The notes under the pieces were generated by a model, which was given only the letters and a program-made list of their open reading frames with translations, was not told where the DNA came from and searched no databases. A stretch of 28,180 nucleotides of DNA from Actinomortierella ambigua (taxonomy: Eukaryota; Mortierellomycota; Mortierellomycetes; Mortierellales; Mortierellaceae): contig JAAAJB010000470.1 of the NCBI GenBank assembly GCA_016098155.1, positions 1-28,180 on the forward strand, in the 5' to 3' direction. The position numbers and the translations under genes were made by a program. Shown piece after piece: positions 5,446-28,180 of the stretch. Position 1 is the first letter of the stretch. The number at the start of each line of letters is the position of its first letter.

Positions 5446-5526
5446 TTTGTCCACAATATCAGAGAGCTTCGTTGGCGCGCGTTATATAATTTTGCGTTGA
5501 GGGACCCCTTTATACCAAAGGAGGGT

Positions 5527-5535
5527 TATATAAAA
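5527..5535 (+). promoter_or_regulatory. Strong TATA box with CT-rich leader
   Basis: TATATAAAA is followed by a pyrimidine-rich stretch (5541-5590) and an ATG in good context (caccATGt) at 5594, 59 nt beyond the end of the box. This matches the promoter layout of the other genes in the window, yet only a 40-codon frame follows. Confidence 0.5.
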
Positions 5536-5593
5536 TATATCTCTCTCCATCTGACTCTCTCACTCCCTCTGCAACTTGCCCCCTCGCAACACC

Positions 5594-5716
5594 ATGTCTC
5601 CTATTTGGCTCAGGAGAACAACAACATCGATAGCACTAGCTCTGGAAAAATACGAAAATGGTGGTTTAATCTGCGCATTTTGGAATTATATAGGTGGGCA
5701 CAAGGCTGCTGGGTAG
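5594..5716 (+). CDS. Short 40-aa ORF behind a complete promoter, possibly a truncated first exon
   Basis: The ATG at 5594 opens 40 codons ending at TAG 5714-5716. The product starts MSPIWLRRTTTSIALALEKY and has no clear signal peptide or domain. It is supported only by the TATA box and CT-rich leader directly upstream. A GTGGGC donor-like site lies before the stop, so this could be exon 1 of a longer gene whose remainder is decayed. The next recognisable coding block downstream is repeat copy C near 5925. Confidence 0.25.
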   Translation: MSPIWLRRTTTSIALALEKYENGGLICAFWNYIGGHKAAG

Positions 5717-5924
5717 AAAAATCATTTTTGCGCAATTGCATGCATATCGGGGAACAGCAAAATAAATGTAGAAAAGGGTGCAGCGGAGCAGCTGCTGAAT
5801 GGGGTTGGTCTCACGCGAAGAGCCGGCCACCACACGATGCGCATGACATGCTTTCTGAGTCCGAATGTCAACAACAGCCCGGGACATGATATCAACCAAC
5901 ACATGCGTTCTTCTGCTCCCAGGA

Positions 5925-6180
5925 GCAGATGTACAGACACATGTTTTTTCTTTCAACGTTTCGTGTTACTGGCCTCTCGCCGATTTCCATCTTGTAATAG
6001 CTCCACCATCATGGCCATCAGGACATGGGAGTGGATGTGCAGGGCAACAGGAGGAAGCTAGGTCGTGGCAGACCAGCAGGATACTTGGACTACTCGGATA
6101 CTTGTTCCTGAGAGGTGTCACTCTGCAAACAATGAGCGTGACCTCTGACGACATTTATCCACTGGTGAGTCAGGACCTCT
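5925..6180 (+). repeat. Dispersed repeat copy C (most diverged)
   Basis: This segment matches, with gaps, two better copies at about 11640-12035 and 25960-26328. Shared landmarks in the same order are a CTTGTaA/CGCAG acceptor region, an exon with GGAGCTAGG-like and CCAGCAG..TACTTG-like blocks, and the tail ATCCACTGGTGAGTCAGGAC. The encoded exon retains HQDMGVDVQGNRRKLGRGRP, aligning to YQDGGEDGQSDRRELGHGGP of copy B. Divergence is highest here and the tail is shorter. Confidence 0.55.
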
Positions 6181-8882: not shown

Positions 8883-9395
8883 TCACGTCGTTGCCATTTG
8901 GCCTTCCATCGCCCATCGCTTCAGTCCCTTTTTGTCGCAGTTACTGTTGACGGTCACAGTTGCGTTGGTCACCTCGAGGGTCTGGCCTCTCAACAAGCAG
9001 TCTTGGTCGAACGTGATAGTTTGACCTTTACCGCCGGTGTGGACAATGGTGAAATTGCAATGCTCTAGTTTGTCCTGAGAGAGCGTGATGACCATATGGC
9101 CAGGGCGTGGTACGATACTCGGATACTGGCAGCCATCCGCTCCGGCTGTAGCTGTGCCACCCGTGTTGTACATACTGGTCTTGATGTTTGAGTATACACC
9201 GTTAGGCGAGTGGCATTTGTTTAATACGCCCGCGGTGGGTACATCTTGCGTTTCGTTTGGCTTTAGTGGATCGCCTTTGAGGTAGAGAAACTGATGGAAG
9301 TGGCACTCCAGATCTCCAGGTGCTGCGTGGACGACAGGTGCGAAAGCTGCAAGTGCAGCGATCTCAAGGGCAAGGAGGACGGAGACGAGGACCAT
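8883..9395 (-). CDS. Secreted six-cysteine protein, 170 aa
   Basis: A single open frame starts at ATG 9395 with a typical signal peptide (residues about 1-24, ending VVHA before APGDLEC). The mature part has six Cys, enough for three disulfides, and three N-glycosylation sequons (NET, NFT, NAT). It contains Gly/Thr-rich stretches and a VTNATVTVNSNCDKKG segment, suggesting a beta-rich extracellular protein. I do not recognise a domain; an effector-like or cell-wall role is inference. The TGA lies inside GTGAGTGC, which is also a perfect splice donor. However, an AATAAA 52 nt downstream and the lack of a good continuing exon favour the stop being real. The gene stands alone, with a CATAAAA box upstream. 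Confidence 0.72.
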   Translation of the reverse strand: MVLVSVLLALEIAALAAFAPVVHAAPGDLECHFHQFLYLKGDPLKPNETQDVPTAGVLNKCHSPNGVYSNIKTSMYNTGGTATAGADGCQYPSIVPRPGHMVITLSQDKLEHCNFTIVHTGGKGQTITFDQDCLLRGQTLEVTNATVTVNSNCDKKGLKRWAMEGQMATT

Positions 9396-9540
9396 CGTAA
9401 TGGATGAAGGAGTGCTCTTGCAGAGTCAAAGCCGCGCCCTGTGTAAAGCTAGTATGCTACTTTGGTGTCGAATGGGATGTTGGGAGCTGATGGTTGAAGT
9501 ACTGGCGTGATTTTGGGTTTGAATTGGCTAGACGAGAGGG

Positions 9541-11177: not shown

Positions 11178-11867
11178 GACAAATACCCCTTCAGCTCGTC
11201 ACTCTCGTCCCGGTGGATAGTGAAGGCAACGAGAGCAAGTTGATGGCGGCGGCGGTCGATTTACCTGGATGGATCAATGTCGCCTCGGTATCGACCCACT
11301 TAACGCGTATATGCCAAAGACTGGACAATGGCGTCGGGGAACGACTAGAGGAGCTTTTCTTTGCCAAGATTTTTTTTTTTTTTTTTTTTTTGCCGTCTGC
11401 ATGGGAATTCTCGACTAATCATCTCAAGACCGAGGCTTCAATAGACACTGAGGCGGACAATATCAGCATCTGGGAGGTGTGCATCCTTGGGCCTGAAGGT
11501 TGCTTTACGACAGCAGCGATCCTCGGCTGTGACGAACGAGGTATGTTTTGGCGGAAGGATTGTTATTTGATTGATTTGTTCCACTCACAGCACTGGCCAC
11601 TGAGTCGACCATGTGGTACTTTCTGGGTGTGTATGTCAACACCATGGTCTGCCTGTGTCTGCGTTCTTCTCCCTGAGAAGTAAGTGTCGGACTCAGGCAT
11701 TGTCTTTGGTTCAATGTTTCTTGCTGCTAACCTCCCGCCATTCCTCAACTTGTAAGTTCGTCACATGGTATCAAGACAGTGGAATGGATGAGCGGGACAG
11801 CGGGTGGGAGCTAGGGCATGGAGAGCCAGCAGAATGCTTGCTCATGAGCGGCGCCCTTCAGCTTTAG
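11178..11867 (+). pseudogene. Coding-like region carrying repeat copy A, interrupted by a T22 run
   Basis: Open frames include VTLVPVDSEGNESKLMAAAV and ASIDTEADNISIWEVCILG, separated by a run of 22 T (11370-11391) that would encode seven Phe in a row. A likely short intron follows (GTATGT at 11541 to CACTCACAG near 11590). A second intron (GTAAGTG near 11681 to TTGTAAG near 11755) leads to the exon TWYQDSGMDERDSGWELGHG, which stops at TAG 11867. That exon aligns with copies B and C. Relative to copy B, which reads past the equivalent point, copy A stops early. Some frame changes upstream suggest decay. Confidence 0.4.
11370..11391 (+). repeat. Poly(T) run of 22
   Basis: An uninterrupted T22 run in the middle of an otherwise protein-like open frame. 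It may be an insertion or a slippage expansion. Confidence 0.9.
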
Positions 11868-12035
11868 CTGAGTGACTCCTCTCAGAGTAATCATCCACTG
11901 GCGAGCCAGGACCTACACAATCTCTACCATTCAACACCTTCAACACCGTACCTTCAACACCGTTTGCAATCAGGGGTGAGGCAATGAATTAGGCACAGCG
12001 ATCTTAGTCGGAACTGTCGAGGCTGTCGACGATGA
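11640..12035 (+). repeat. Dispersed repeat copy A
   Basis: Closely similar to copy B (25960-26328). Both share CTCCCTGAGAAG, ATTGTCTTTG, the acceptor region, ACATGGTA, GAGCTAGGGCATGG, CCAGCAGAATGCTTGCTC, the long block around TCAGAGTAATCATCCACTGG, and the end GATCTTAGTCGGA...GGCTGTCGACGATGA. Copy A keeps a good GTAAGTG donor where copy B reads AGCAGCG. It also has a small internal duplication of the CTTCAACACC unit. Similarity ends sharply after the GTCGACGATGA block. Confidence 0.75.
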
Positions 12036-12050
12036 CTTTAGGAGGGTGCG

Positions 12051-12090
12051 ACTGGCTTCTATCTGGCTCGACTGGCTTCTATCTGGCTCT
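12051..12090 (+). repeat. 20-bp direct tandem duplication
   Basis: ACTGGCTTCTATCTGGCTC is repeated back to back, 12051-12070 and 12071-12090, with one mismatch in the last base. It lies just past the end of repeat copy A. Confidence 0.9.
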
Positions 12091-12099
12091 TGTGTGGCA

Positions 12100-13750
12100 A
12101 ACCATGGATGTGAAGACCAACGACCGTTGTGGCCTTGCACCCACGCTCTCACATCTGTGCTTAGGAATATCCGTAGTTCAAAGCCGACAGCACAACACAG
12201 CCATAGACGGCGCTCGGGCGGACAACAACGATAATCGCCACATCCACTGAACGGACACCAGTAGCTCGTATCATTCCAAGCGAGGACCACCGGCACACGA
12301 CCGATGGGGTGGATGGTCGAGGCCAGGGGTGCAGGGACTTTTTCTCTGCTACTTTTAAACAGATTCTTCCCACAAGGACCAGATCTACCTGGATCGGCCC
12401 TATCCCAAGACCATGGTGCACAACATGACCAACCCTTTGTAGACAGTATTTTCTCGGCGCTTGATCGACAATTTCGGACGATGGGAAGCCCTCGAAACAG
12501 CGCAAGAGTCTATTATGTGATACCATGGACTGAACCCTGCTCAGTTGGGACCTCTAGTGGCACAATACACGCCACTTCATTTGCCACTTTCTCTGAACAG
12601 GACGGAGTCACCTGTACAATCATTGTGTCTTTCCCCATTGGTAAGGGCACAAGGACGCATAAAAATACCGTAGATAAATGACCACTTGCCTTCTTTCGCT
12701 CTCCCCCCCCCCTCGATCTCGTCTGCTGCCACATCCATAGCATTTTTGTAGCGTTGTATTTCATCTTATTTCATTTTTTACAATTCTATCAACGCTCTTG
12801 TCCTCATCTGCCCCGATGTGTTGCAAGCGTGCTCCTCACGTCCAAGTTCTTAACATGAGGACGTGGCCTTGCTTAACGATGAGACACTCATGTAAACGGG
12901 TCGGAAAAGCCCTTGGCAAAGCTTTTTTTTTTTTCATCTCGATGGAACACTAGTGGTTTCTCGTAAAGGGTGGCTAATAACACCAACATAAGCCCCAGAA
13001 CCGCGCACCAAAGAGTTCATGGTAAAGCTTCCGTGGTATTCACGCTAGTACCCGTTACTCTCGTATTTTCAGCAAGGAGTTTGCCTCCTTGTGTCCTTGC
13101 CTTGGGATACAAGGTCGTGCCTTTTAGGAAAACACTTTTTTTTTCAGATTTCTAAAGCCACAACCTTGTGCACTTAAAACGGCTACAATGATTGTGCGTC
13201 ATATGCCGTCAGTTTGGTTTGGTACCATGTAGCATTTCTCTTCTTTGGGTAGGTTGTCCCTGAAGTACAAGGTTGTCACATTCCAAAGCATTCACTTTCT
13301 TGGCCAGTCAACATGCACAGCACGCTTTCAGTCATCGGCTTTGGATTCATACAAAGATACGAGATACGACTGTTCTAGTGCGCTGCCTCCAGTTCTTGAG
13401 CGACACGCCAATCATCATGGAGACGTTTGTCCCAGGCTCCATCGCACCCAATTGTGGAGCTGGTGTTGAATGCAGCGGGCCAGACCCGACCATTGGATGC
13501 CTAGCCCCCAAGACAAGTGAGAGTCTAGATATGTTGCCCCTCTCTTCTTTGAAATCTGCAATTGGATGCTCACACACGCCGTTCATCGCGCGACATTTGG
13601 AGATCCCAGGAGGCTCGTACGTTTTCGCAATATCAATGCTTATTCCAAAGCCCTCCCTCCATAGACCTTTCCCGACATACGCAACAATTTCATGCTGCTC
13701 TCTGTCTATCCTATTTACTCGCCGTCTGAGGCAGCTGGTGTGTCAAGGGT
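12100..13750. other. Intergenic stretch with one weak ORF
   Basis: A plus-strand frame at 12304-12681 (125 codons from ATG) includes VDSIFSALDRQFRTMGSP and IHATSFATFSEQDGVTCTI. It has no signal peptide or known motif, and a GTAAGG donor-like site lies near its end, so it may be an exon remnant. Another open frame (13273-13824, +) overlaps the 3' end of the minus-strand secreted gene and looks like chance. Homopolymers: C10 near 12703, T10 near 12925. Confidence 0.3.
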
Positions 13751-13751
13751 A

Positions 13752-13757
13752 TTTAAT
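13752..13757 (-). terminator. ATTAAA poly(A) signal variant
   Basis: On the minus strand ATTAAA lies about 64 nt after the stop of the 115-aa secreted protein gene. Confidence 0.35.
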
Positions 13758-13820
13758 AGTTGGGTTGCTTGTCGAATGCAAGAACAGAGGGAAACAGTTT
13801 TATCTAAGAGGGCCACTCGC

Positions 13821-14168
13821 TTAAGGGATAGTAGCGGTCCAGCACTTCTCTGCGCCCATCTTTTCAGCCATGTAAAGGTTCCTTTTGGCCACATATTTGG
13901 TACACGAGCCAAGACGTCCGTAGCAGACTCGTGCGTAGTCGACTCCGGTAACCTTCCAGTACAACTCCCAGGTACCTCCATTGCACCATGTTGATTTTCC
14001 ACCAGCCCAGTTGTTGAGGACAGAAGACTTGGAAATGCCGTCAATGCAAGATCCGTAGCTCATTCCCGTGGACATAATGGCCTTGCCGTCCCTGAAGCAA
14101 AGGTTCTCCATGGCAGCAGAAGCAGCGGCAACAAAGGCGAGAGGGGCAAGAAGCTTGGTAATGAGCAT
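13821..14168 (-). CDS. Small secreted six-cysteine protein, 115 aa
   Basis: The start is placed at ATG 14168, giving a textbook signal peptide (MLITKLLAPLAFVAAASA). The frame is open upstream to 14255, but that extension is hydrophilic and crosses what looks like a 5'-leader intron: donor GTACGT at 14263, branch-like CTAAC, acceptor GCTAATAG ending at 14174. The mature protein (about 96 aa) has six Cys and is rich in Gly, Trp, Tyr and Lys (NNWAGGKSTWCNGGTWELYW). This fits a compact disulfide-bonded extracellular protein. Family not recognised; effector or antimicrobial-type roles are guesses. A TATA box lies 168 nt upstream and an ATTAAA downstream. Confidence 0.75.
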   Translation of the reverse strand: MLITKLLAPLAFVAAASAAMENLCFRDGKAIMSTGMSYGSCIDGISKSSVLNNWAGGKSTWCNGGTWELYWKVTGVDYARVCYGRLGSCTKYVAKRNLYMAEKMGAEKCWTATIP

Positions 14169-14173
14169 GTTTG

Positions 14174-14263
14174 CTATTAGCGGAGAGGATTTTGTATAAG
14201 GTGTTAGTTGTGCTGGGTAAGAAGGACACTTGTTGTGCAAAACACAACTGTTCAAGAACGTAC
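14174..14263 (-). other. Predicted 5'-UTR intron of the 115-aa secreted protein gene
   Basis: Minus-strand donor GTACGT (14263-14258), an AACTAACAC branch-like sequence, and acceptor CTAATAG ending at 14174, five bases before the ATG. The 90-nt length matches the window's coding introns. Confidence 0.5.
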
Positions 14264-14335
14264 CAAAGAATTGAGTGCGAGTGAAGGATATGATCGGAGG
14301 ACTGAAGAAGACATACCACTGTGCCAGGCAGAGAT

Positions 14336-14344
14336 CCTTTTATA
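14336..14344 (-). promoter_or_regulatory. TATA box TATAAAAGG
   Basis: A near-ideal TATA box on the minus strand, 168 nt from the ATG at 14168. With the predicted leader intron removed, the spliced leader is short. Confidence 0.6.
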
Positions 14345-14349
14345 CGAGT

Positions 14350-16560
14350 CGTGGCTCAGATGTGCCTCGATAGGGTCAAAACATCACCCATGATTTTTCG
14401 TGCTCCTCAAACTGTGGTAGGGCACTTGCATGGAAACACACTCTGCCTTAGGTGAGGAATGATCTTTTGTTCCATTCCCGGAATGCGGCTATGCAAACTC
14501 TATTGCAGCAGAATTATTGGCAGAAGGGAACAAAGTGGTGCCATCCCAATCTGGTTTATTGTGGGCTGTTGCATGCGTGTTACACAAACAAGAATCTCGG
14601 TATTCGGTATCTTCTCCGGATTGGGCCGCCGCGTGTGTGCTCAGATTTTACCAGCGGCAGCAGCAATGTGTTGCAACTTTGGTAGATGTCTGCTGTTCTC
14701 TGAGGTTCCAAGAATTCTATGTGATATGTATCTTCAACGATGAAACGATCGTTCAAGCTGACGTTTCTCGGGGTGCTGTGCTTTGTGTTACAACAGACAT
14801 CCATACATGTGGCATGAGATGTTACAGTTCCTGTGTACTAGGCGCATGCAAGCATGCATGCACCGCCAAATTTGGGCGGTGCACCAATTGGCCATCCTCA
14901 GACCAACGACGGTGGTGCAAGTATTCAGAATGAACCACTGTAAATCGTATGAGGACTTTTGAGGAAAAAAGAAAAAAGATTAGCCAAGCGACAGTCGTTC
15001 TGCTGCATGTGTCTTACTCTTCGGTGTTTGCTATCAATAGCATCAAAACTTGGAGCATTCCAGGCTTCCAAAATGCTCACCTCACCTTGGCCTCAAGGGT
15101 GCATACCGTCCTTGCTTTCCATAGGAGATTCAACTATACATACGCTGTCATAGACCTACGATGTTGTTAGATTGGCTATACAAATGTCCTAGTGAATACA
15201 GCAGAACGATTTGTAGGGGTTTGCGAGTAGGAGCCGCTGCACATTTAGTCGCGCTCTTCAACTATGGTCTCCGACTGGGCTACATGCGCCCAATGACTCG
15301 TTTCCGACTTTGAAATTTGCGATGATCAAGGTTGGTCGTCGGCTATGATATTGACAGTCTATCGTACTGTTCGTCGAGCTCACTACTGCCTGGCTCACTA
15401 CTGCCTAGCACAAAACTATGCCCATAGCGCGTCAGGTAAAAGTGGAGCCACCAAAGGTCTCCATGTGTCCTGCCGAGCCTTTGCTTGCCCGCAGTATGTA
15501 GATCCTTCCTAGCCTGTAGCGCTTTTTGTCGCTAGAACCATATGTAGTCTCTCTTGCGTGCTCCATCTTCGATGTCACTGGCCCCCGGCTTGGCGGCAAG
15601 ATGGGGGCAGTGCGACGCAGATTGACACTCCAAGCCAAAAAAGAAAGAAAACTCTGTGTATTTGTGGGATCGAAGATTATCACGCAGGACGGAATTACAT
15701 CAAGTCATAAATGGCGCAGAAAAGCTGAGGTCTGACCATGAGGGAAGCACGCGGAGCTAATTGCTTCTTTTTGTACCCACAAAGGAAGGCAGGACGTGGA
15801 TGCTGCTAGTCGACTAAGCATGCTGTATCTTTATGCTGTATCTTTGGGCTATTGTCCTCATGTGCGGTAGCAGAGAGCAGCAGATATCCCATCTGCGACT
15901 GCTGTTCTGTTCTGTCTCGTTTGCAAGTTTGCAAACTTTCGACTTTTGATGCATCGCCATGGTACTGCACGTGAAGTACATTCGTACGTACAAACAAACT
16001 TTTGCACACCAGCAGAACTCCAAAAAAACGGCACCAGCACATTTCCGCCCACCCCCTACCAACAACCAAGAAGACTCTCTCTATCAACTTGCCTTTTCGT
16101 CTGGCAACGCAACCAGTCGTACCTGGGGCCACTCTTGCCGCGCACGGTGTTCTTTGGATGATACCCTTTGCGACAGCACACCTGTCCGCGCTACTTCCAT
16201 TATCACATGCTCTCCCCCTCACCCAAGGAAATGAGAGCGATCCCCATCCACACATTTCTTGCGCTCTGCTACCATATCAGAGTCTTAATGGTCAATCAGA
16301 GGTTTTGTGTACAGAAGATATTTAATACTAAGGGGGGTCAAGAAGAATGATGATACTGCTATGGTAGTTGTCTACTTTTATAGGTGTTTGTTACAATCCG
16401 ACCTGGCGCGTGGTGATTGTAATTGCCATCTAACTAGAAAAAAGTCAATAATGAAACCAACAATGGTTAGTCAGCGATTTCTTGTGCCACCCTCGCACCT
16501 TTCCATATACTGACTATGCCCCCTCCCTATCTCTCTCTCACGCTCTGAAATGACTTACTG
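14350..16560. other. Gene-poor stretch with small duplications
   Basis: No gene is supported. A weak candidate is a 56-codon plus-strand frame from the ATG near 16157: it begins like a signal peptide (MIPFATAHLSALLPLSHALP) and ends at TAA near 16325, with a CT-rich stretch upstream. Two exact tandem duplications occur: GCTCACTACTGCCT at 15378-15391 and 15393-15406, and ATGCTGTATCTTT at 15820-15832 and 15833-15845. A palindrome at 14859-14883 is listed separately. Confidence 0.35.
14859..14883. repeat. Perfect 9-bp inverted repeat, 7-nt loop
   Basis: TGCACCGCC (14859-14867) and GGCGGTGCA (14875-14883) flank AAATTTG. The stem is G+C-rich and stable. Just upstream is a cluster of GCATGC-type palindromes (14843-14858). 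Confidence 0.8.
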
Positions 16561-16562
16561 GT

Positions 16563-17017
16563 CTACAACTTGGCGTTGAGAGCCCTAGTGGCACCAGTGA
16601 CGGTGTCCAGGGCAATAGATCGACCAGTGGTCATGCGCTGGTATGGGCGAGCCTATGTCCACACCAAAAAGTAAACAAACAGATGGAATGAATTACTAGA
16701 GTTTTCGACCACATTCGATTCCATTCAAATTCAAAACACCAAAGTCACTTACTTGCCTCGCCCGACTCCACGGATGTGGATAGCGCAGTCTTGTTGGGTT
16801 TTCACTCCAGGCGAGTGCTGGAGGCTGGGGGGACTTGTAAAATGGGGAAGTAGCCGGGATGTGGGAATTTCTGCCACGCGGCCTGGCACGACACCCTGTT
16901 GCTTACTCGTTCGTCCCAGCTTGTGAGGTCGGAAGAGAATGTGGAGAAAGGACGTGAAAAGAGAGGAAAAGAGGAACGGGGCTCGTGATAGGATGGGATG
17001 GGGCCTTTACCCCCCAT
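16563..17017 (-). CDS. Possible small three-exon gene, 90 aa, divergent to the Fanzor-type gene
   Basis: Exons 17017-16907, 16824-16753 and 16652-16563 join in phase 0 to give 90 residues ending at TAG. Donors are GTAAGC and GTAAGT; acceptors are CCCCCAG and GGACATAG. Introns are 82 and 100 nt, like those of neighbouring genes. The N-terminus (SFPLFSRPFSTFSSD) resembles a mitochondrial presequence. The last exon, ARPYQRMTTGRSIALDTVTG then ATRALNAKL, reads like conserved protein, but I cannot name it. Promoter support is good: TATATAAA 105 nt upstream and a (CT)n leader on the coding strand. Doubts: a second CAG acceptor would give another frame in exon 2, and a GTAAGTC donor-like site lies 4 nt past the stop, so the gene model may be incomplete. 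Confidence 0.42.
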
Positions 17018-17039
17018 AAATGTGGTGTGTATGTATGTG

Positions 17040-17042
<3 letters not shown>

Positions 17043-17073
<31 letters not shown>
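17043..17073 (+). repeat. (GA)n microsatellite
   Basis: About 15 GA units. On the minus strand it is a (CT)n tract within the presumed 5' leader of the small gene starting at 17017. Confidence 0.95.
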
Positions 17074-17076
<3 letters not shown>

Positions 17077-17121
17077 TGGAGTGGTGAGAGAGTGAGGGTG
17101 AGATATGGTGAGAGAGAGGGG

Positions 17122-17129
17122 TTTATATA
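17122..17129 (-). promoter_or_regulatory. TATA box TATATAAA
   Basis: Minus strand, 105 nt upstream of the ATG at 17017, followed by the CT-rich leader. It abuts the end of the minisatellite. Confidence 0.55.
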
Positions 17130-17135
17130 CAAAAA

Positions 17136-17740
17136 GCGTTGGCGCCGAGGGTGGACAAAGCGTTGGGGTTGTGGAAATGGCATTGAGGAGAAAGAGACAA
17201 AGCGTTAGGGTTGTGGAAATGGAAGTGTGGAGAAAGAGATAAAGCGTTAGGGTTGTGGAAATGGCATTGAGTAGAAAGAGACAAAGCGTTAGGGTTGTGG
17301 AAATGGAAGTGTGGAGAAAGAGATAAAGCGTTAGGGTTGTGGAAATGGAAGTGTGGAGAAATAGACAATGCGTTGGGGTTGTGGAAATGGCATTGAGTAG
17401 AAAGAGATAAAGCGTTAGGTTGTGGAAATGGCATTGAGGAGAAATAGACAAAGCGTTAGGGTTGTGGAAATGGCATTGAGGAGAAATAGACAAAGCGTTA
17501 GGGTTGTGGAAATGGCATTGAGGAGAAAGAGACAAAGCGTTAGGGTTGTGGAAATGGAAGTGTGGAGAAAGAGATAAAGCGTTAGGGTTGTGGAAATGGA
17601 AGTGTGGAGAAATAGACAATGCGTTGGGGTTGTGGAAATGGCATTGAGTAGAAAGAGATAAAGCGTTAGGTTGTGGAAATGGTATTGAGGAGAAATAGAC
17701 AAAGCGTTGGGGTTGTGGAGGGAAGTGTGGAGAAATAGAC
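17136..17740 (+). repeat. 42-bp minisatellite, 14 units plus a degenerate one
   Basis: The unit begins GCGTTAGGGTTGTGGAAATG and is 42 bp. Units start at 17160, 17202, 17244, 17286, 17328, 17370, 17412 (41 bp), 17453, 17495, 17537, 17579, 17621, 17663 (41 bp) and 17704 (37 bp, truncated). A 24-bp degenerate unit starts at 17136. Two variants alternate in the middle (GGCATTGAG and GGAAGTGTG). Units 4-7 are repeated as units 10-13 in the same variant order, including the 41-bp unit, so a block of about 250 bp was duplicated. Because 42 is a multiple of three, long repetitive frames stay open on the minus strand; I regard them as by-products. The array has no spacers, so it is not CRISPR. Confidence 0.97.
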
Positions 17741-17977
17741 TAGTATACCAAAATAAATCCCCTTGTGAAAGAGATCGGTATATCAAGAAAGAGTGATAGA
17801 GTAAGTGAATGAGAGAGTGGGTTGTCACCCGAGCTTGTTCTCTCTGGTTGCCTGCAGATGGCCACGCCATCTCGATTGTTATTTCTAGACGTCCTTCATC
17901 GCCATCTCCCTGTCGTGCATTCGCTGCCTCATAGTTACCTCTCACTTTTGACATCAGTACAACAACACCAGACTCAG

Positions 17978-20900
17978 ATGGATGATAGCACGCAGTCGAA
18001 ACGCCGACTTTCCACACGCTCCGCATCGGGATCATCGACAAGCTCATCAACCTCCGCATCTCGCCCGAGGCGCTCACCCGACAAACGAAGAAGGACGTAT
18101 GCCGAGATCGCAGCATCCGCTTCATCGCCAGCCACAGCGAGCAGTAGCAGTCAGCGTCAAGATACGCGACAGGTACGGTTTTCGGCAATGCCGTTGGCTG
18201 GACCCATCGACAGCCGAGCCCACTTCCCGTCGTCGGTCAACACGATGAGCCTACTGCGCTCTACAAAAGGTGTGAGTGCTTTGGAGAACCAAGCGTTTCT
18301 CATTACTCGCATCGACAACCTGGACAAACGACTACAGGCTGCCTACTGCGCCCTCCAAACAACCACCTTCAACGAGAGCGCGGGTGCCTGCAAGCATTCG
18401 CTACTACGCGAGGGCTTGGTTCCGTTGGCTCAGGCTCACATCAGTGAGCTACAGAAGACGCCGCTCTGGATGGCCTACCAGCTTCTTAAGATGACAGACG
18501 AGCAAGCCATGCAGACCAACGTCAAGCAAGAATTGACAATCAAGCTGGTTCCAGCCTCACAGCATCAGCCTCTGACCATTGAGGTTCCTCATCAGTCGTA
18601 TCTGTTTTGGTTGCTCGTTGCCGAGAAGCTTCGAATCCGAATCTACGTGTTTTCGACTGCCAGGTATCCCAAAGTGTTTGGCCCCAATAATTGCCATTTT
18701 GCCATTGGCATCCTGCACCTTCAGGACTCGTTCAACCATGTGTCCCAGTGGGTAGCCCTTGGTCTCTCGAGAACGCAGCCTGAGCCTCGCGCTGTGACAG
18801 AGGGTTTGCCAACAACCTCAGCACCGATGCCAACAACCTCAGCACCGATGCCAACCACTTTGACAAGCTCCGCGTCAAGTTCAGCACCGATGTCTAGCCC
18901 CGCTTCAAGCTCAGCTCTGCCCCAACAAGCTCAATCTACGAGGGCTAAGGTCGCTGTGTCGGAAGATGACGCTCAAGCCGCTCTCGAGGCATCATGGTAA
19001 GAAACATTAAAGATGAGGATAAGCAAGGCTCAGCATGAGCGTGAAAACTAACAAAGGACTGACCATACGCTTCCACATTCATGTTATCGCACCAGCTTGA
19101 AAAACATACAGGAGACGGCCAACAAGTGGGTTAGCAGAGCCCACGGCGACTTTGCTAACGACGAGAAGAAGACAAAGCCGCTCCAATCGTTCATCGAATC
19201 AGCCCACAAGGAGTACCTGGAGAAGACTGATCCAGTCAAGGCCAGGCGATCCGTGCCCACAGGTGTCATCAACAGTGCCGCCAGTATTCTTTGTCAGCAG
19301 AAGAGCCTTGGAGGCGACGAGATGGACGCAACTCGCTTGGGCAAGATCCTCTCGAAGGTCAACAAGGTTCAAATTTGGCAGGGAATATCCACCGAGAAGC
19401 GGGATGACTGTTGGGAGACAGCCCTGGCCAATACAGCCCTGCGTGAAGACAGAGCCGAGACGCCCAAAACCACACAGCTGGAGAATATGAAGACCTGCCC
19501 TGCTAGCCTCGGCAAGATTCTGAACTTGGAGATGAGGGCAAACCAGACGACCATTGTGGATATTCTGAATCAGCAGCAAGAAGCCCTCACCGCGGACATG
19601 ATTGACCTGAGCGCGATTGCACAGGGTGCTCTATTGCAAGTCGTCGGCGGCAAAGTCTACCAAGGCCTCTGGGGCCATAGTGCTAATGGTCCCAAGACGT
19701 TTGATATCAACACCTTGCTGCCATCCACCTACCAGGACGAAAATCCCAGGCCATTAAGAATAGTGCCTATCCCACCTCTTCTCCATGCAGCACTTCGGAA
19801 GCCCAAGGGCGAGATGACGCTGGAAGAGCATGACCTGAAGGATCTTTTCACCAACCACCACCTCCGTCACCTACACACGCGGTTTCTGGGTTCTGGTAAG
19901 CAGCAAAAGGCCACTACAGCGACGCATCCACTCTGGCAAAACCTTGCCCTAGATGTCGTTGACTTTAGCAATCCCAAGAACAGGGTGGCTACTGAGGTCC
20001 TCGACGCCGCCATCACTGAGATGGCCACTTCTTTCACCAATCTTTCGAATGGCTCGTCCTACAACCGGTCCATGACCTATCTTTTGCGCATCCTTCTTCG
20101 CATATGGATGGCTCCAGAGCGCATGAGAAAGACCAAGGAGGTCCGTCAAAAGTACGCAGAAGACAAGGATAATATTGTCAAAAAGGGCTCCAGGCGCCGC
20201 GTTCAATGGAAGCGATGGAAACAAGGACGCATTCGGAAGTGCGATATGCTTGCAAAGGCACTCCTGAAAGGGAAGAACCTCGGTCCTAGCCTTCGGGTTC
20301 TTTATTTTCATGAATCTTCAAGGCCATCGGCCGCTATCCCTGGACGGATTCCTCCTCTTAACGAGCAGCTGGCAGCCACGGAGCTCGGCTCTAATGTCAC
20401 CAAGGCCGCCGTTACAGGCACCGTCCTTGACGATGACGATGATGACGATGATGACGATGATTACGACGATAATGACGACGATGATGACGATGATGACGAT
20501 GATGACGATGACGACGATGATGACGATGATGGTGACGACGATGATGACGATGACGACGATGATGACGATGACGACGATGATGACGATGATGATGATGACG
20601 ACGATGACGATGATGATGATGACGACGACGACGATAATGATGATGACGGTATGTTGCTGAGGCTTGATTGAGTCGATGTTTTACTCTTTTTTTTTTGTCT
20701 AATAGCTAATCAATTAAACCCCGTCTCCCATAATAGCGTCCGAGCCATCGGCCAAGCGTCTGCGCGTGCTCGAAGCCATCATCCGACGTGTTCTGGAGAG
20801 TCCAACAACCAAGCTTCCTCTTAACATGAATGTCATCAAGGGCTACGCTTGGAAAGGCACTGAAGTGACAGACGAAGAGGCGAGGATCCTTTTAAAGCTT

Positions 20901-23295
20901 GCAACCATTCTCCACCCATACGTTCCCAAGAAGATGCCCAGCAAGTCAAGTGATGGCGAGGCAGCAGCAAGCGAGGACAAGGGTAAAAAGAAGAAGAAGA
21001 AGAATACTGAAGGAGAAACCAATACTCAAGGCACCCTTCTTCGCCATCCGGCGTTGCTCACTCCTATCATCATCATTGCTGGCGCCGTACTGCGGGCAAC
21101 GGGGCACAGGAACTTTGTCCAGTCATTCTGTCCGCAACCGTCGATCGCCCACAGACGTCCAATGCATGTCTCTGCCACGGCGCTGTACCAAATGTTAGCC
21201 TCGTCCGAGGCTCCTTTTTCAGTGAACGACGGTTTTGGCCATCTCCTCACCATCCGCAGCAGAATCGCAAGTCATCCAGACAACCCCAAGCTGATTTTTG
21301 AGCGGTTCTTCGACATGACAACCATAAACAAAATCTGCCGAGACTATGGATTGCGATTCCGAATGCGGTAAGTTTTGTTTTTTACTGTTGTTGTTTTCTT
21401 CCACTGACATGAGTCAGCCTACAGCAGCAACCTCCTGACGCATCCCTTTTCTATCTCTCCAATCAGCCTAACATTCGTCGAAGAGAAGACAATGTTTCTC
21501 CTGGGGGAGGTCATCCCACATGCTGTAGATGGGCGCGCTGGTTATCCTGTTTTCAGCGCTCTTGAGGACCGCAAGAAAATGCAGAAGAAACGGCCAGGTG
21601 GCACGGCAGACAACTGGGCACGCAAACTACAGCAATCTGGGATGACGGCAAGCCAAGCCAAGGTCAAGGCCGAAGCAGCAGCAGAAGAGCTCAAAGTGCT
21701 CGACGCCAAGATCAAGGTGCTCCAGCGGCGTTCCTCTGCCTCTTCAAAGAACCAGACACTGAGCAAGCAGGCCCTCAACAACGCCAAGAAGAGTCAAGCA
21801 GCGGCCGAGACGATCGCCATGCTGCACACCACATTCAAGACTGCTCGCAACAACGTCCATGCATGCACAAGAGAGCTCATCCCGCTGAAAGAAGAGCGGC
21901 GACTCCTCAAGTCTCGGCACTATCAGCTAGGCATGATGGGGGGCGTTACCAGCATGCCTTCAGCATCAAAAACATCGTCTGCACCATTCACAGCCCCTAC
22001 CCTCGACCGACAGCAGGTTCACGACGACTCGAACCATATGGACTTGAGTCAGTTGAAGCTCGAGGTTCGACCCTACACCGTGGTCTTTGGTGCAACCGAC
22101 CCAGGGCTCGTCACGATGCGCTCTACGACTGCTATCACGGGCAACGAGATGCAGGTCTTCTATGACTACTACAAAGCTTCTAAAGGTAATTTCTGTCCAC
22201 ATGCAGCGTGCCCTCTACCCTTGATAGGACCACCCTTTAATAACATTGCGTTTCTTTCTATTTTAATCGTTCAGATCCATCCGTTGCGCTCCCTGCCGAA
22301 GTACCTTTGATCTCCAAGGGTCACACAACCACCGCCGAGCACTTGCACGAAGTAGCTCATACGCGGAAACTCGGGCAGAGGCGAATCAAGCGCCTTGCTC
22401 GAGATGCAAGCGCTCAGGCTGCCTATAGCGCCATCCAAGACCCTGCCTGCTCGTTGACCACTGCTACTTCTGTACGCGAGCTGCAGTCGGCTCATGCCGC
22501 CAGGAGAGCATGCCGGAAAACGCTGCAAAAGTTCGAGCAGTCTGCACGACAGGTGCATGACAGGAAAACGCTGCAGCTCCGGAACAAACGGGCTTGGCGA
22601 AAGGTGGCAGCAACGGAGCGCCATTTTGTGATTAGGCATGCTGGTAAGTTGAGTGCAAATTCTTTTTTTTTATTTTTTTTTTCGAAAAGTGTGCGCATCT
22701 TGGCAACTCACCCAGGTCTCCTAATCGTGTTGTGCTTACTGTAGATGCTCCACCGTCGACACGGGTTTCTCCCTATGACGGGTTCTGCGCAGAATGTAAT
22801 AAGCATCATCTCACCAGCGCTCAATATGGTTCTGTCTTCTCCCACATCACACGCTGTCCCAAGTTGGACACACCGATTGTCCCGGTGATGATCGAGGGGG
22901 CTGCAGGAACCGCGGTTGGGAGTCGCTTGAAGGGGCACATCAAGCGCGGCGGCCGCAAGGCAGTCAAAGAACACCGACTAGTGTGCACCACCATTGAACA
23001 GGACGAGCATCGGACGTCAAAAGTATGCATAGGCTGCTTTTCGGAGATGGACAAGGCCACCAGCAGGCGCATCGTCAAGGGCTCGATCAAGGTCAAGAAG
23101 ATCAATGGCGCCTTACAGTGCCCGAACCCGGATTGTCCCCGGGTGAAGCAAGGACAAGCCACATGTAGCCGCGATCCAAAGTCTGTGGTTGCCATTGGTT
23201 TGGCGTGCGCCGGTCGCCTGTGGCTCCGTGAAGACCGGCAGCCTCTTTCGTGCTTCACCAAGGAGGCACCCATCGACACCAGCGGGAAGTCCTAA
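17978..23295 (+). CDS. Fanzor-type (eukaryotic TnpB-like) RNA-guided nuclease, six exons, 1613 aa
   Basis: Exons: 17978-18996, 19096-20648, 20737-21367, 21467-22185, 22275-22643, 22745-23295. Donors are GTAAGA, GTATGT, GTAAGT, GTAATT and GTAAGT; acceptors are all YAG; introns are 88-101 nt. Every join keeps frame and the total is 4842 nt. The start at 17978 begins MDDSTQSKRR; an in-frame ATG at 17858 would add 40 residues. Layout: basic Ser-rich N-terminus with RRSPDKRRR (31-39, NLS-like); unrecognised domain (about 183-256, IRIYVFST); TSAPMPT linker repeat; long helical region; Asp tract (785-857); second Lys-rich patch (KGKKKKKKN); coiled coil (about 1125-1222); RuvC-I GATDPGLVTM with D1279; E1481; DEHRTSKVC with E1518; zinc finger C1525/C1528 and C1556/C1561; D1574. 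Family members use a 3' guide RNA to cut DNA; activity here is inferred from intact residues. No terminal inverted repeats were found. Confidence 0.9.
20429..20647 (+). repeat. (GAY)n tract encoding a 73-residue poly-Asp block
   Basis: 73 codons, nearly all GAT or GAC, with single Tyr, Asn, Gly and Asn interruptions. It sits at the 3' end of exon 2 of the Fanzor-type gene, directly before the GTATGT donor. Mixed GAT/GAC codons show it is not a pure recent triplet expansion, although slippage of short GATGAC units is likely. Confidence 0.95.
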
Positions 23296-23480
23296 TGTGC
23301 ACAACCTGTTGTGTAAGAGGATAGGATACCCTCTACACTAGCGTACGCACATGCCTTACAATCAGCCGCCTTATATTCTCTCAAACTTTACTTTTTCACC
23401 TAAAAATAAATAGCTTTTCTCATAGTCATTCTACACCTTTTTCTTGATCAATATATTTTTCTTTACCATACTTCTGTCTC
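23296..23480 (+). other. 3' flank of the Fanzor-type gene, candidate guide-RNA region
   Basis: In characterised Fanzor and TnpB loci the guide RNA is encoded at or just past the 3' end of the nuclease gene. This flank has no open frame, begins with a short inverted element (TGTGCACAACC/TGTTGTGTA) and becomes AT-rich after 23360. An AATAAA at 23405-23410 is the likely poly(A) signal. The guide-RNA assignment is inference from family biology only. Confidence 0.25.
23405..23410 (+). terminator. AATAAA poly(A) signal of the Fanzor-type gene
   Basis: Located 110 nt after the TAA, in AT-rich sequence. Confidence 0.5.
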
Positions 23481-24650
23481 TGCCTACTTTATATGTTGTG
23501 GCTCTTCTTCGTCACTAGCGGCCACGCCCGACTTCGCCGCGTGGGGGCTTGTCGCTGCGTGAGCTTCTCGCTCTGGAGGCGGGGGAGAGAGAGAGATGAT
23601 ATCGCTTTGGTGGCGGTGCTTCTGTTATCGTTCTGCTCTGGTGTGGGCCATGTGGTTTGGTGTGAGCCATGCTGAGAATGATTGAAGAAGTGGACGATGT
23701 AGCATAAGGCGCGAGAGAAGTAAAGTAATGCAGGCACCGTATGTAGACTCTCATTGCTCGTTCTCGAAAAACACCTTTTCTTGGCTTATTATTTCCTTCG
23801 ACTCTCTTGTTGACCCTACCCAAATCATACCCTATCTAACTACTTGTCACTCTCCACTTCCTTTCAGTCCCGCCTTCCTTGCCGATGTCAAGAGCGTAGC
23901 CTTGAAGGACCCTGTAGCTACCGGACATCCATGCAAGTACAACCTCGATGGCAACGCAGGCGACTTTGAAACCTGGTGAAAAGCCAATTCTCCCTGCTCT
24001 TACTCCTCGCGTGCATTGATGACCTGCGAGAGTTGTATGTAGACGAACAGAGGATGCTATTAGAACAAAAAAGCAAACACGCAAGACGCGAAAACAAAAC
24101 GCGCGGGAAAGAACAAAATGGAGAACAGCAAAGCATTGACGAGAAACACCAAGGCAGCCACGGAGATGCGATGTGAAAGAAGGAATGAGCACAATTTGTC
24201 ACCAGCCCCCCCCCCCCGGCGGGGGGCCATGTAAATGCAAGTTAGAATGTATGATTTTACCAAAAAAAAAAAGGACGTCAAATTTCGCCTGGCAAGAGTC
24301 AGATGTCCCATGTGGGACGGGCGTCAGCCATCCCCCATAAAGGCTACTGGCCAGGTCTCACCTCTCCTTTTTGAATGTACAGATCCACCCCATCGCTAAT
24401 TAACATTTAATGTTCATACATGGTCCATTCACCCGGCATGGCATTCCACCCACCTCTTTTGGCGCCTGTAGAAATGTCTGAAAAACTTAAAAAGACTCTC
24501 TCTCTACTCTACCTCCCTGTTTCTATCCACCTAGTGATCCTAGAGACTTGCTTCAATATGGGCGAAATTCACGCTTTGGTCGACACACTGTCTAAGGTTT
24601 TTGTCCCCTAAGAATACACACACAGGATACGATATCTTGAATCCAGTCAC
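23480..24650. other. Intergenic stretch with a possible terminal exon remnant
   Basis: At 23867 a good acceptor (CTTCCTTTCAG) opens a plus-strand frame that includes LADVKSVALKDPVATGHPC and ends GDFETW then TGA near 23979; no matching upstream exon was found. At 24206-24226 a C12 run, GGC and a G6 run form a strong G+C hairpin. No other feature can be supported. Confidence 0.35.
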
Positions 24651-24778
24651 TAGAAGCGGGTACACTTCTCTCCAGGGCGGATTCTCCCTCAAGTTGCCAC
24701 TCCAACCTTGAAGGCTGTCTTCCAAGAGATCACCCAATCCATCAGCGAGTACAAGCCGGTTTCCATGCCAAGAGGATG

Positions 24779-24803
24779 TTTTTTTTTTTTTTTTTTTTTT
24801 TTT
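24779..24803 (+). repeat. Poly(T) run of 25
   Basis: An uninterrupted T25 run just ahead of the coding-like region that carries repeat copy B. Copy A also has a long poly(T) run upstream. Confidence 0.9.
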
Positions 24804-24850
24804 AGCTCCGCGACGTCTCATGTGGCAATGCGATCGGGACGTCCTTATTC

Positions 24851-26322
24851 ATGTCAACCACTAACCTCGTACCGATCAACACCGCTTTCGATAAGATGCG
24901 GCGCGTCAATAAGTGGTTTAAGCACATGACAATAGTGCAGGGACAACGGCCCATGTATGCAAAGCGATGGGCGGTGAACCATTCGGGTGAAGACACCAAG
25001 ACGCAAGGTCCCCTACCTATTCATCTGCGACTATTGCATTGCCCACTACTACGCCATGAGAATGTCCTTCGTGCTGTCTACCAGAGTCGACGGTGGCGTT
25101 AGACAAGGAATGGAATGCACTGGGTTCTGAGATGCACGATGAGCTGAAAAAAGGCTATGCAACCGTAGCCAGGCAGCTATGGTCGCAAAAACTGAAGGGT
25201 GGGGCGCTCCACTTCCTGACAGAGGCTGATTTGTCGTTATCGATGATCGGCAGGTTAGGGCCCATGGTATCTTGACGTGTTGGAGCTAGTCTATGAATCA
25301 GCATCGAGACAGGGAGCAAGAGCATCAAGATTTTCATCTGCCAAAGCACACGAGCTTTCTTCTTTGCACTTGATAGATTATGTCCGCAAGGCCAGGATTG
25401 TCCGGACCACCCCTACCTCAAGACTGTGGCACGCAACATTGCCTCCAGATGCATGCTACATTTAGCGGCAGCCTTCATATAACTTCTACACCAGTGAAAA
25501 CCCATGCTAGGGTGTTAATAGTGAGGAGGCCTTTTGCCAATTTCCGCGTTTTGAGAGACACGCGAGGGCCCACTGTCGCCACGTCTTTCACATAGGGCGC
25601 CTTCATGGGTTGGCGGCTCGGGTTTTCCGAGTCTATGAAGACCACTTTTTGACTGGCTCAGGCTCACCAACAGTGGATTCACCACTATCATCTAGCCATC
25701 TGCATTGTGAGCAAGAGGCAGCTACTTCCAGAGCATCGGTTTGAGATTCCCAGCACCGCCTTGATGAGCAACAACGCAACCATGCAGATAGAACTCAGCA
25801 GGAGATGGGACTTGGCATCCATTTCGAGGTGGACAATTTATACCCCGGCGAGACGATCGCGACACGGGTCTTCAAGCTCTTGGGGGGAACCGTTGGCAAC
25901 AGGAAGTTCATGACTTACTCTCTGGATGCGTATGTCAATAAAAGTTCAGAACAAGACGCTCCACCTGTGCCTGTGTCGTTCTCCCTGAGAAGCAGCGTCG
26001 GGCCGGGCGCCGGCATTGTCTTTGCTTCAATATTTCCTACTGCTAATCCTCAACTTGTCGCAGATTCTTCACATGGTACCAGGACGGCGGAGAGGATGGG
26101 CAGAGCGACAGGAGGGAGCTAGGGCATGGTGGGCCAGCAGAATGCTTGCTCGTGAGCGGCGCCCCTCGGCTTTGGCTGAGCGACTCCTCTCAGAGTAATC
26201 ATCCACTGGCGAACCAGGACCTACACAATCTCTACCATTCAACATCTCTAACACTGTTTGCAATCAGAGGTGAGGTAATGCATTAGGCACGGCGATCTTA
26301 GTCGGAGCTGCTGAGGCTGTCG
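24851..26322 (+). pseudogene. Decayed coding region carrying repeat copy B
   Basis: Protein-like segments follow in changing frames: FDKMRRVNKWFKHMTIVQGQ (24851-25102), NALGSEMHDELKKGYATVAR to a TGA near 25275, and MGLGIHFEVDNLYPGETIAT running to KFMTYSLDAYVNKSSEQ (about 25740-25985). After a decayed donor (AGCAGCG in place of GTAAGTG) and an intact acceptor (GTCGCAG), the exon TWYQDGGEDGQSDRRELGHG reads on to LSDSSQSNHPLANQDLHNLY and a stop near 26285. Stops and frame changes show it is not intact as a single gene. No known family is recognised. Confidence 0.42.
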
Positions 26323-26328
26323 ACGATG
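25960..26328 (+). repeat. Dispersed repeat copy B
   Basis: Aligned with copy A (11640-12035) over almost the whole length, ending at the same GGCTGTCGACGATGA block. Most differences are substitutions. Copy B keeps the exon open past the point where copy A has TAG (CGGCTTTGG against CAGCTTTAG), and lacks copy A's small CTTCAACACC duplication. Confidence 0.75.
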
Positions 26329-26594
26329 AATAGAGCGGATCGCGAGAAGAAGCTCTACAAGCTGTAGCAACGAAGAGAGAGACAGTATTAGCCCTCAAAG
26401 AGGGCCATTGGCCCTGACCTGCCTTGACGTCGAATGTGATGTCAATGCCATTTTTCCATATTGTCATCTTCCATGGTCTTGCCACTATGATATCATCATA
26501 TCGGATGCGCCTGCGAACTTCAACTTGGCCAGCTCGGCCAAGGTCCCCGAGGGACTAATTCCCAGCACCGGTAAGCACGGACTCGAGCATTCTC

Positions 26595-26920
26595 TCCTAC
26601 TCATCCCAAGTAAAACGGTAGCATCCATTGATGAAGGTATCAAAGTCATCGGTACATACCGCCCTTCGTTTCTTGGCTTCTGCCTGGACCATGCTCGACG
26701 AGGCGGCTGTGACGCCCAACTGAGAATCGACAGCTTTAATAGCCATCATAGCGTGGTGCTGATCAGCAGCTGCATCGTCCTCGTTGTTCACAACGTTAGA
26801 GTCCTTGAACACACTCTTCAGGTTGGCAGTGCCATTAGTATGATCGTGATGGCAATGTTTCAGTCACCAATGCCCTCCAATTTCTTCATCAACGCGTTGA
26901 CCTTTGGTAAGTGGTAACAT
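26595..26920 (-). pseudogene. Exon-like remnant, possibly from a copia-type Gag
   Basis: On the minus strand the sequence reads VNALMKKLEGIG, then a stop, then IAITIILMALPT, then after a frame change LKSVFKDSNVVNNEDDAAAD and SSMVQAEAKKRRA, with a GTATGT donor-like site next. The pattern of a helix, an I..ILMALP motif and a basic end recalls the Gag (UBN2-type) region of Ty1/copia elements. This is a by-eye resemblance, and no zinc knuckle, protease, integrase or RT is visible nearby. Confidence 0.25.
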
Positions 26921-27243
26921 TCACCTCAATCGCGACCTATCCTTCTTCACCGCGCACAGACACAAATTACTTCATGAACGATAGTGCTACGTTAAGAGAC
27001 ACCGTAAGCGACATCATGTTGAGTCTACTTCACCAGATGAAGCTTCCAACAATTCCCGTCGCAATAAAAATGATGAGAAAGTAATTACTAGACTAAAGGG
27101 TTCTCTCATCTTTGATTTCAAGCACTCTTGGTTTATTATTCTTGTCGTACATGATCATGAAAGCAAACGTGAGACTGGGATAGCAAGTGAGGTGGTCTCC
27201 AATAATGGTGTGCTTGAAGGGGAGATGGCTAGCCCTGACCGTG

Positions 27244-27450
27244 CTATTCCCAAAAAAATTTTTCACAGATACATCGTCGTGGAGGTGGCCCACACTTCGC
27301 CATCAGATCTCCTGTATTTCGGAAACGGCATAGATTCCAGGTGGCACATGAAATGGTGCAGCCCAGGCTGAAACCAGCTTGTGCTACGGATAACGTCATA
27401 ACAAGTATGACTAGGTAGAGGACAATAGCATTGGTGATGCGAGCAGCCAT
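27244..27450 (-). CDS. Small secreted six-cysteine peptide, 68 aa
   Basis: ATG at 27450 opens a signal peptide (about residues 1-25, ending SVAQA). The mature part of about 43 aa carries six Cys spaced C-x3-C-x5-C-x12-C-x6-C-x-C. C-x3-C and C-x-C pairs occur in defensin-like folds, but here C-x3-C is the first pair, which does not match the canonical CS-alpha-beta order. The frame ends right after a T7 run. A second minus-strand frame that overlaps it continues as protein-like sequence to 27093, so the stop may result from a one-base change in that run. A good TATA box is 72 nt upstream. An AATAAA near 27132-27137 would serve a short 3' UTR. Function unknown. Confidence 0.6.
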   Translation of the reverse strand: MAARITNAIVLYLVILVMTLSVAQAGFSLGCTISCATWNLCRFRNTGDLMAKCGPPPRRCICEKFFWE

Positions 27451-27521
27451 GGGTGATAAGGTAACGTGGGTACAAGAGAAAGGGCAGGGGTTGTGAAGAT
27501 TGTGGTAAGAGCCGGCCAGGG

Positions 27522-27528
27522 TTTTATA
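27522..27528 (-). promoter_or_regulatory. TATA box TATAAAA
   Basis: Minus strand, 72 nt upstream of the ATG at 27450. Confidence 0.6.
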
Positions 27529-27539
27529 CTTAGCAGTGG

Positions 27540-28126
27540 TTTGTGTCGAGAGTCTTGTGTCGATGAGTCATAGCGGAGGAAACGTGAGATTGTGACATGA
27601 CACAATGCAGTATTTTCGTCACATGTACGTGGTTGGACCGTAGAAAAAGACAGTGGCCACTGTCCGAAGGCATACAACTAGAGTACCTACCATACTTACC
27701 ATGTGTACGTTACGGTCGTTACCTAGCACTTACTACACCATGGCAAGCCCAACCTTGCATACATAGTCTGCTTTACCGTGCTAGCGCACGCTGTATCAAA
27801 ATGTCTGTTTATTTTCTGGGCGAGGAAGAGAAAAAAAAGGGCCAGTTCCCCTCCATCATCTCAGGTATTTGTATTCCATTGCATTCAGATTTTTCCAGTA
27901 AATGCAAACTCGCATTGAGGCATATCAAAGTCGCTCATGATATATCAAATTAGCACTTTACTATTTCAAAGTAGTGATACTTCTTTTCAAAGTGGTATAA
28001 AATAAAATCGAAATAATTTCTCGTTCTCAAAATTGTTCATTCAATTTGAAACCATTGTTCTTCGTATCCAAGATGTTTGTATCAATCAAAGTCAAGATAT
28101 TTACCACCAATTCCAAAATCGTTTTT
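27540..28126. other. AT-rich right flank with one weak ORF
   Basis: A plus-strand frame from ATG 27597 (118 codons) has no signal peptide or motif and is not supported. From about 27930 the sequence is strongly AT-rich, with repeated ATCAAA/TTCAAAG words and a TATAAAATAAAA stretch near 27997. The composition change marks a boundary with the rest of the window. Confidence 0.4.
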
Positions 28127-28180
28127 AGGGATTTTTTAGGGATTTTTTAGGGATTTTTTAGGGATTTTTTAGGGATTTTT
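28127..28180 (+). repeat. 11-bp tandem repeat AGGGATTTTTT at the window edge
   Basis: About 4.9 perfect units of AGGGATTTTTT, running off the right end. Each unit contains TTAGGG, the usual fungal telomere hexamer, spaced by extra T and A, so the array is telomere-like but not a true telomere repeat. Confidence 0.95.

Follow-up and report, generated by a model that had tools for sequence, protein, structure and literature searches.

A gene probably encoding a giant Fanzor-lineage nuclease in Actinomortierella ambigua, with transposon-carried paralogues

Fanzors are programmable nucleases of eukaryotes. Here we describe a spliced gene on the forward strand (17978..23295) of a 28,180-nucleotide (nt) stretch of the fungus Actinomortierella ambigua (contig JAAAJB010000470.1 of assembly GCA_016098155.1); the window below means this whole stretch. 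The gene probably encodes a giant Fanzor-lineage nuclease, in which a RuvC endonuclease (D1279, E1518 and D1574, with a C4 zinc finger) stands behind about 1270 family-specific residues. Judged by its motifs, the protein is a Fanzor-lineage variant nearest to Fanzor1 and is not a typical Fanzor1. As far as we found in the literature searched, most subscription papers lying outside its scope, the giant family lacking the TDG motif to which it belongs is new.

The catalytic residues were found where a previous reading of the window, made from the letters alone (the sequence-only reading), had placed them. They are RuvC-I D1279-P-G (22098..22106, + strand), the DEHRTSKVC segment with D1517-E1518 followed by the C4 zinc finger C1525, C1528, C1556 and C1561 (23002..23136, +), and RuvC-III R1573-D1574 (23170..23175, +). 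The Fanzor motif given in the part of PMC3627910 available (Bao and Jurka 2013), D-X(125,275)-[TS][TS]-X-X-C4 zinc finger-X(5,50)-RD, is present in the window protein with D1279, T1521-S1522, C1525/C1528/C1556/C1561 and R1573-D1574. The available part of PMC10711439 gives two Fanzor fingerprints, DPG in RuvC-I and a RuvC-II glutamate (Ealt) six residues before the zinc finger. Both were observed, the first at D1279-P-G and the second at E1518, six residues ahead of C1525, a spacing that is equal in all five family C-termini. Among the five readable RuvC-I motifs of the family, DPG occurs in three (the window protein and the paralogues C122 and C157) and DYG in the paralogues C338 and C16. The combined fingerprint pattern occurred once in the window protein, whereas none of 2000 residue shuffles contained it. 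An additional CxxC...C, a possible zinc site (C1445-C1468; 22786..22857, +), was found in each of the five family C-termini examined.

Searches of the Protein Data Bank (PDB) pointed in the same direction. The C-terminal 345 amino acids (aa) of the window protein alone matched the Fanzor SpuFz1 at E = 0.047, while a profile of five family C-termini matched SpuFz1 at E = 1.2e-5 and PpFz1 of Parasitella at E = 0.046, and these two headed the four rows that reached E ≤ 10 among 177,635 PDB sequences. The predicted structure of the last exon of C338 was poor (predicted local distance difference test score, pLDDT, 55.7; predicted template modelling score, pTM, 0.29), and with this low-confidence model rows 1 to 6 of a Foldseek search against the PDB were all Fanzors (best E 2.5e-3). 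The model also has long helices predicted where the kinked helix pair of Fanzor1 REC2 would sit inside RuvC, with a pLDDT of about 63-83 in that block. The sequence-only reading had proposed a Fanzor/TnpB-lineage identity, to be checked by a profile or structure search of the 1613-aa product. The profile of family C-termini put Fanzors at the top of the PDB list, and the identity is supported by this result together with the published motif, the fingerprints and the Foldseek rank order of the low-confidence model.

Several database results weigh against this identity and would fit some other RNase H-like or zinc-finger protein carrying the motifs by chance. Pfam gave no rows for the window C-terminus; its one row for the whole window protein was CDC45 over an acidic run, below the cut-off, and PF07282 matched two of five family members (best E 0.0039). 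NCBIfam offered no useful support, its two weak rows both being unrelated. The C338 tail model is of low confidence, and a VIA search with it listed helical bundles and two Cas12 rows but no Fanzors among 50 listed matches. Such a chance origin is nevertheless very improbable, given the result of the 2000 shuffles, the conservation of the motif across five divergent C-termini, the ranking of Fanzors in both the PDB profile and the Foldseek searches, and the DDE transposase neighbours at C16 and C338 described below. In the available part of PMC10711439 the TDG motif is characteristic of the Fanzor1 WED domain. None of the five family sequences spanning its site has a literal TDG (a sixth, C781, is a C-terminal part), and for this reason the window protein was not filed as a typical Fanzor1. 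The middle part of the protein gave no match by sequence.

The gene was modelled with six exons whose five joins keep frame, yielding 1613 aa and a stop codon without inner stops. On the + strand these are exon 1 (17978..18996, aa 1-340, with a phase-2 donor), exon 2 (19096..20648, aa 340-858, ending in the acidic run), exon 3 (20737..21367, aa 858-1068), exon 4 (21467..22185, aa 1068-1308, with RuvC-I), exon 5 (22275..22643, aa 1308-1431, between RuvC-I and RuvC-II) and exon 6 (22745..23295, aa 1431-1613 and the stop). The five introns measure 88-101 nt, all with GT...AG ends. For the splice scan, stop-to-stop frames were listed, and every GT-AG intron of 50-260 nt that would link two of them in frame was scored. 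The introns of the sequence-only reading ranked top at all five joins under a splice score with length and branch terms, the length term (92 nt) having been chosen after the window introns were known; without these two terms, introns 1, 2 and 5 ranked first and introns 3 and 4 second, among 18-51 candidates each. The exon 4 donor is thus the second-ranked one in that setting, and the top rival of intron 4 (22048-22274, 227 nt) would remove D1279. We preferred the shorter intron because in the paralogue models RuvC-I stays exonic and the introns span 83-123 nt. Two introns of the window gene recur in four paralogues at the same alignment column and phase, intron 1 at column 365 and intron 3 at column 1298, both in phase 2, which supports the gene model. 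Intron 4 matches the paralogues in phase within a nearby, badly aligned stretch, introns 2 and 5 are private to the window gene, and one intron common to the other four genes is absent from it. The exon 5/6 join is spanned by an alignment of window aa 1324-1508 to the Linnemannia protein P0001. The start is uncertain, since an in-frame ATG upstream at 17858 would add 40 aa. The claim of six exons joined in frame stood up, as the 1613 codons are free of stops and the splice scan and paralogue intron positions agree.

The window C-terminus was searched against its own genome (33.8 Mb, 846 contigs), returning 36 rows at E ≤ 1, of which 24 reached E ≤ 1e-3 on 15 contigs including that of the window. 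Four models are full-length giant proteins of 1512-1812 aa (C338, 1512; window, 1613; C122, 1660; C16, 1812). Large Fanzor1s are of about 800 aa in the available part of PMC10711439, and the giant family is about twice the size of those named there. Two further paralogues are partial: C157 is a 1380-aa 5' part ended by the contig edge, and C781 holds the C-terminal part only; they overlap at 92% identity and were kept as separate pieces. Broken copies lie at C457, C241, C83, C437, C228 and elsewhere. Paralogues are 22-25% identical to the window protein over the N-terminal part and likewise over the next one, 25-35% over the part that precedes RuvC-I and 31-39% over the C-terminus, except that C157 shows 25% there with only 71 positions aligned. 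DNA searches with window exons 1-2, 3-5 and 6 found only the C457 locus and short fragments at C131 and C347; C457 is a broken copy, scrambled and partly inverted, whose parts match stretches within window 16426-24366. In the C457 sequence (L050), positions 5079-5986 are 81% identical to their own reverse complement, and this broken copy looks folded back on itself.

Outside this genome, one relative was found among the 7995 candidates scored with a five-sequence profile, a 215-aa fragment (P0001) from Linnemannia zychae (Mortierellaceae) with E = 1.2e-52. It is closest to the window copy (45.6% identity, against ≤41.2% for other family members), and by itself this relationship makes a mortierellaceous host probable. 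Protein searches gave no match at E ≤ 1 with window residues 1000-1613 (best 7987 candidates by shared words) or with residues 1425-1600 (201 candidates). Family patterns gave 52 (A1) and 39 (A3) pattern matches in IMG/VR and 148 (A1) in GTDB genomes, none of which was confirmed. Within the same literature scope, no paper was found that names Fanzors together with Mortierella, Mucoromycota or Mortierellomycota. PF07282 itself gave 32 rows at E ≤ 1 in the A. ambigua genome, 17 of them above the cut-off, one being C228 of the giant family. Three other rows that were read (L060, L061 and L062 on C12, C326 and C471) belong to a second Fanzor-like family of this genome, with a displaced glutamate (VEEYYTSKKC / VNEFYTSKKC); its C471 member has TDG together with DLG, not DPG. 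Profile comparison of the giant and second families aligned only the zinc-finger start (Prob 48.6), and for the middle part nothing aligned.

The N-terminus of the giant protein tentatively folds like a pseudo-OTU domain. The OTU-like, pseudo-protease region was placed at about aa 129-262 (18362..18763, +) by alignment to the folded residues 50-163 of the C338 model, a placement that is itself tentative. Pfam gave no OTU rows for the N-terminus. No invariant Cys or His column that could supply an OTU catalytic Cys and His was found in five family N-termini, the nearest being a His in four of five at window residue 247, and protease activity of this region is not expected. A viral library returned 319 rows for the N-terminal model; a single one, for a negev-like polyprotein, reached E ≤ 1e-3, and two of the 50 listed rows were named OTU or ubiquitin-thioesterase. 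An OTU-type N-terminal fold joined to Fanzors was not found in the literature covered. Further downstream, aa 785-857 form an acidic repeat with 69 Asp among 73 residues (20429..20648, +).

Two paralogues lie within recognizable transposons. At C16, a DDE_3 transposase (Pfam E = 6.1e-14), open in two exons, is located upstream of the Fanzor-like gene, and a broken relative of it was found at the equivalent place in C338. Imperfect inverted ends starting with TATAG flank both paralogues (C16:62272-70016 and C338:1741-9570), giving elements of 7.7-7.8 kb. Genome-wide, the end pattern had 22 matches (≤2 mismatches) compared with 2 for a reversed-pattern control, and two broken copies, C241 and C83, have like ends too. 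The terminal inverted repeat (TIR) pair of C338 scored 21/26, a value that one resample in 30 equalled. Pair scoring alone is therefore weak, and the C338 and C16 TIRs rest on the matching ends across copies. Two matches of 19-20 of 28 positions in L047 and L050, considered as carrier ends, were taken as chance. The hallmarks of Tc1/mariner (IS630) elements, namely a DDE transposase, TIRs and TA ends, were all found at C16, and at C338 with the transposase broken. By these features, Tc1/mariner (IS630)-type transposons carry the giant family at two loci at least, C16 and C338. Exact left-TIR copies without a listed partner were seen at C418:27648, C481:24880, C644:17360, C725:37 and C759:12624; these may be carrier relatives that have decayed or are non-autonomous. 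The C338 element sits between two secreted-like frames that appear related by eye (L058 2-640 and L045 8093-8758).

No such carrier was found around the window copy. The carrier end pattern had one match in the window against a chance mean of 1.48, an inverted-repeat search of 15000-26500 gave no TIR pair, and the best TA-starting pair between 12000-17977 and 23296-28180 scored 18/26, while 30 first-order resamples gave 17-20. Transposase matches in the window numbered zero, and the Tc1/mariner (IS630) hallmarks were not found for this copy. The window copy is an intact-looking, low-copy family member without a detectable carrier, and is therefore probably stranded or immobile.

How it came to this state may be explained in two ways. 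It may well be a transposon copy left stranded or dying, one that lost its mobility recently, is silent and has an open frame since decay is young; we hold this to be a substantial possibility, a little short of probable. The repeat-rich surroundings, the broken family copies elsewhere in the genome and the C338 element, whose transposase is already broken though its Fanzor frame is open, all agree with this. The substitution pattern speaks against it, as does a reading frame that stays open through six exons and 1613 codons, free of stops and frameshifts. Between the window gene and an exon 4-5 piece of C457, third codon positions differ at 34/196 sites and first and second positions at 38/392 (Fisher p = 0.011), and intron 4 differs at 15/89 sites. 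The ratio of nonsynonymous to synonymous substitution rates (dN/dS, NG86 method) for this pair is 0.40 over 244 codons, with two codons skipped for C457 stops and the inverted C457 piece left out. For comparison, dN/dS is 0.29 for C338/C16 over 1453 codons and 0.59 for C338/C241 over 323 codons, and other full-length pairs were saturated. Past constraint on the window gene is therefore likely, and the earlier suggestion that it may be under selection receives moderate support from the third-position excess and the dN/dS of 0.40 against a broken copy. Because C457 is broken, part of this signal may predate the duplication.

The same observations bear on domestication, in which the window copy would have left its transposon and would now work for its fungal host, in genome defence for instance, its nuclease being kept by selection. 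The open frame with all catalytic residues, the dN/dS of 0.40, the lack of a TIR pair beating shuffles and of any transposase match in the window, the lack of a second intact copy of the window subgroup (only the C457, C131 and C347 pieces) and a nearest relative from another mortierellaceous fungus would fit such a history. However, a pairwise dN/dS may go back to constraint that preceded the duplication, a copy stranded not long ago would look alike, and the ends of an unrecognised subgroup may have escaped the search; we regard domestication as unlikely.

For the giant nuclease itself, studied Fanzors and TnpB suggest a most likely mode of action. A structured RNA derived from the element's 3' side would be bound by the protein, which would cut double-stranded DNA matching the guide of this RNA; within an element, cleavage would favour the element's retention or spread, and the N-terminal part may be a protein-docking module. 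RNA guidance, DNA cleavage, the docking role and expression of the window gene are what we infer. The 3' flank of the window gene had a folding z of -0.96 and no guide RNA was found there; the values for C338 and C16 were -0.53 and -1.91. A hairpin downstream of C338, C16 and C241 (three sequences) showed two compensatory pairs, and 44 of 500 shuffles reached as many, making it a weak lead. In the widest reading, a mortierellaceous giant-Fanzor clade would combine an RNA-guided nuclease with a fused pseudo-OTU docking domain, and its window member would be domesticated, non-mobile and kept by selection; this is speculative and in our judgement quite unlikely. A clade of proteins this large with an OTU-like N-terminus would widen the known eukaryotic additions to the TnpB core. 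With their concrete ends and a transposase, the elements at C16 and C338 lend themselves to testing guide-RNA boundaries, and the window copy permits a direct test of whether Fanzors ever become domesticated.

Other features of the window are as follows. A 42-base-pair tandem repeat of 13.5 copies lies upstream of the start (17154..17719). Downstream, a repeat at 23516-24060 has matches on 15 other contigs and stops at 24060, where another repeat begins (24061-24371; also at C457, C578 and C691). Two copies of a 0.4-kb stretch (11652-12035 and 25964-26329) are 80% identical. The last positions, 28122-28180, carry TTTTTAGGGAT repeated 5.4 times up to the contig end and look telomere-like by eye; a telomere was dropped as an assignment, because a 25-mer taken from this run has just three matches in the genome, each of them within the run itself. 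Short open frames at 340-867, 8883-9425, 13821-14339 and 27244-27567, all on the - strand, have signal-peptide-like starts by eye and resemble small secreted proteins. The sequence-only reading had called the neighbouring coding remnants decayed, which is right in part, but several of these secreted-like frames nearby are open. Rfam and tRNA scans gave no matches.

Compared with known systems, the window protein is most like SpuFz1, the Fanzor1 of Spizellomyces punctatus (PDB 8gkh, 9ceu), which we take to be SPu-1-1p and which was both the best PDB profile match and the best Foldseek row. The two share the D/E/D order, the DE-x-x-TS-x-x-C segment, the C4 zinc finger and RD. Unlike SpuFz1, the window protein has 1613 aa, lacks TDG, starts with an OTU-like region and carries one more CxxC...C ahead of RuvC-II. 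For the N-terminus the closest known system is the OTU deubiquitinase fold, as in yeast Otu2, OTUD3, OTUD5 and the OTU-like tymovirus PRO; the giant family differs in its lack of an invariant Cys or His. SPu-1-1p is of 633 aa in the available part of PMC3627910. PpFz1 of Parasitella parasitica (PDB 9cf0), the second PDB profile match, is a Fanzor1 of fungal origin whose RuvC contains a family-specific insertion, the FRI domain (PMC11423790, available in part), whereas the extra mass of the window protein precedes RuvC-I. Fanzor1 genes in Tc/mariner elements are described in the available part of PMC3627910 as having a mariner-type transposase upstream, the Fanzor in the 3' part, TIRs and TA ends. 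The arrangement at C16 and C338 matches this and differs by its giant Fanzor, while for the window copy the Fanzor gene was found without the carrier part.

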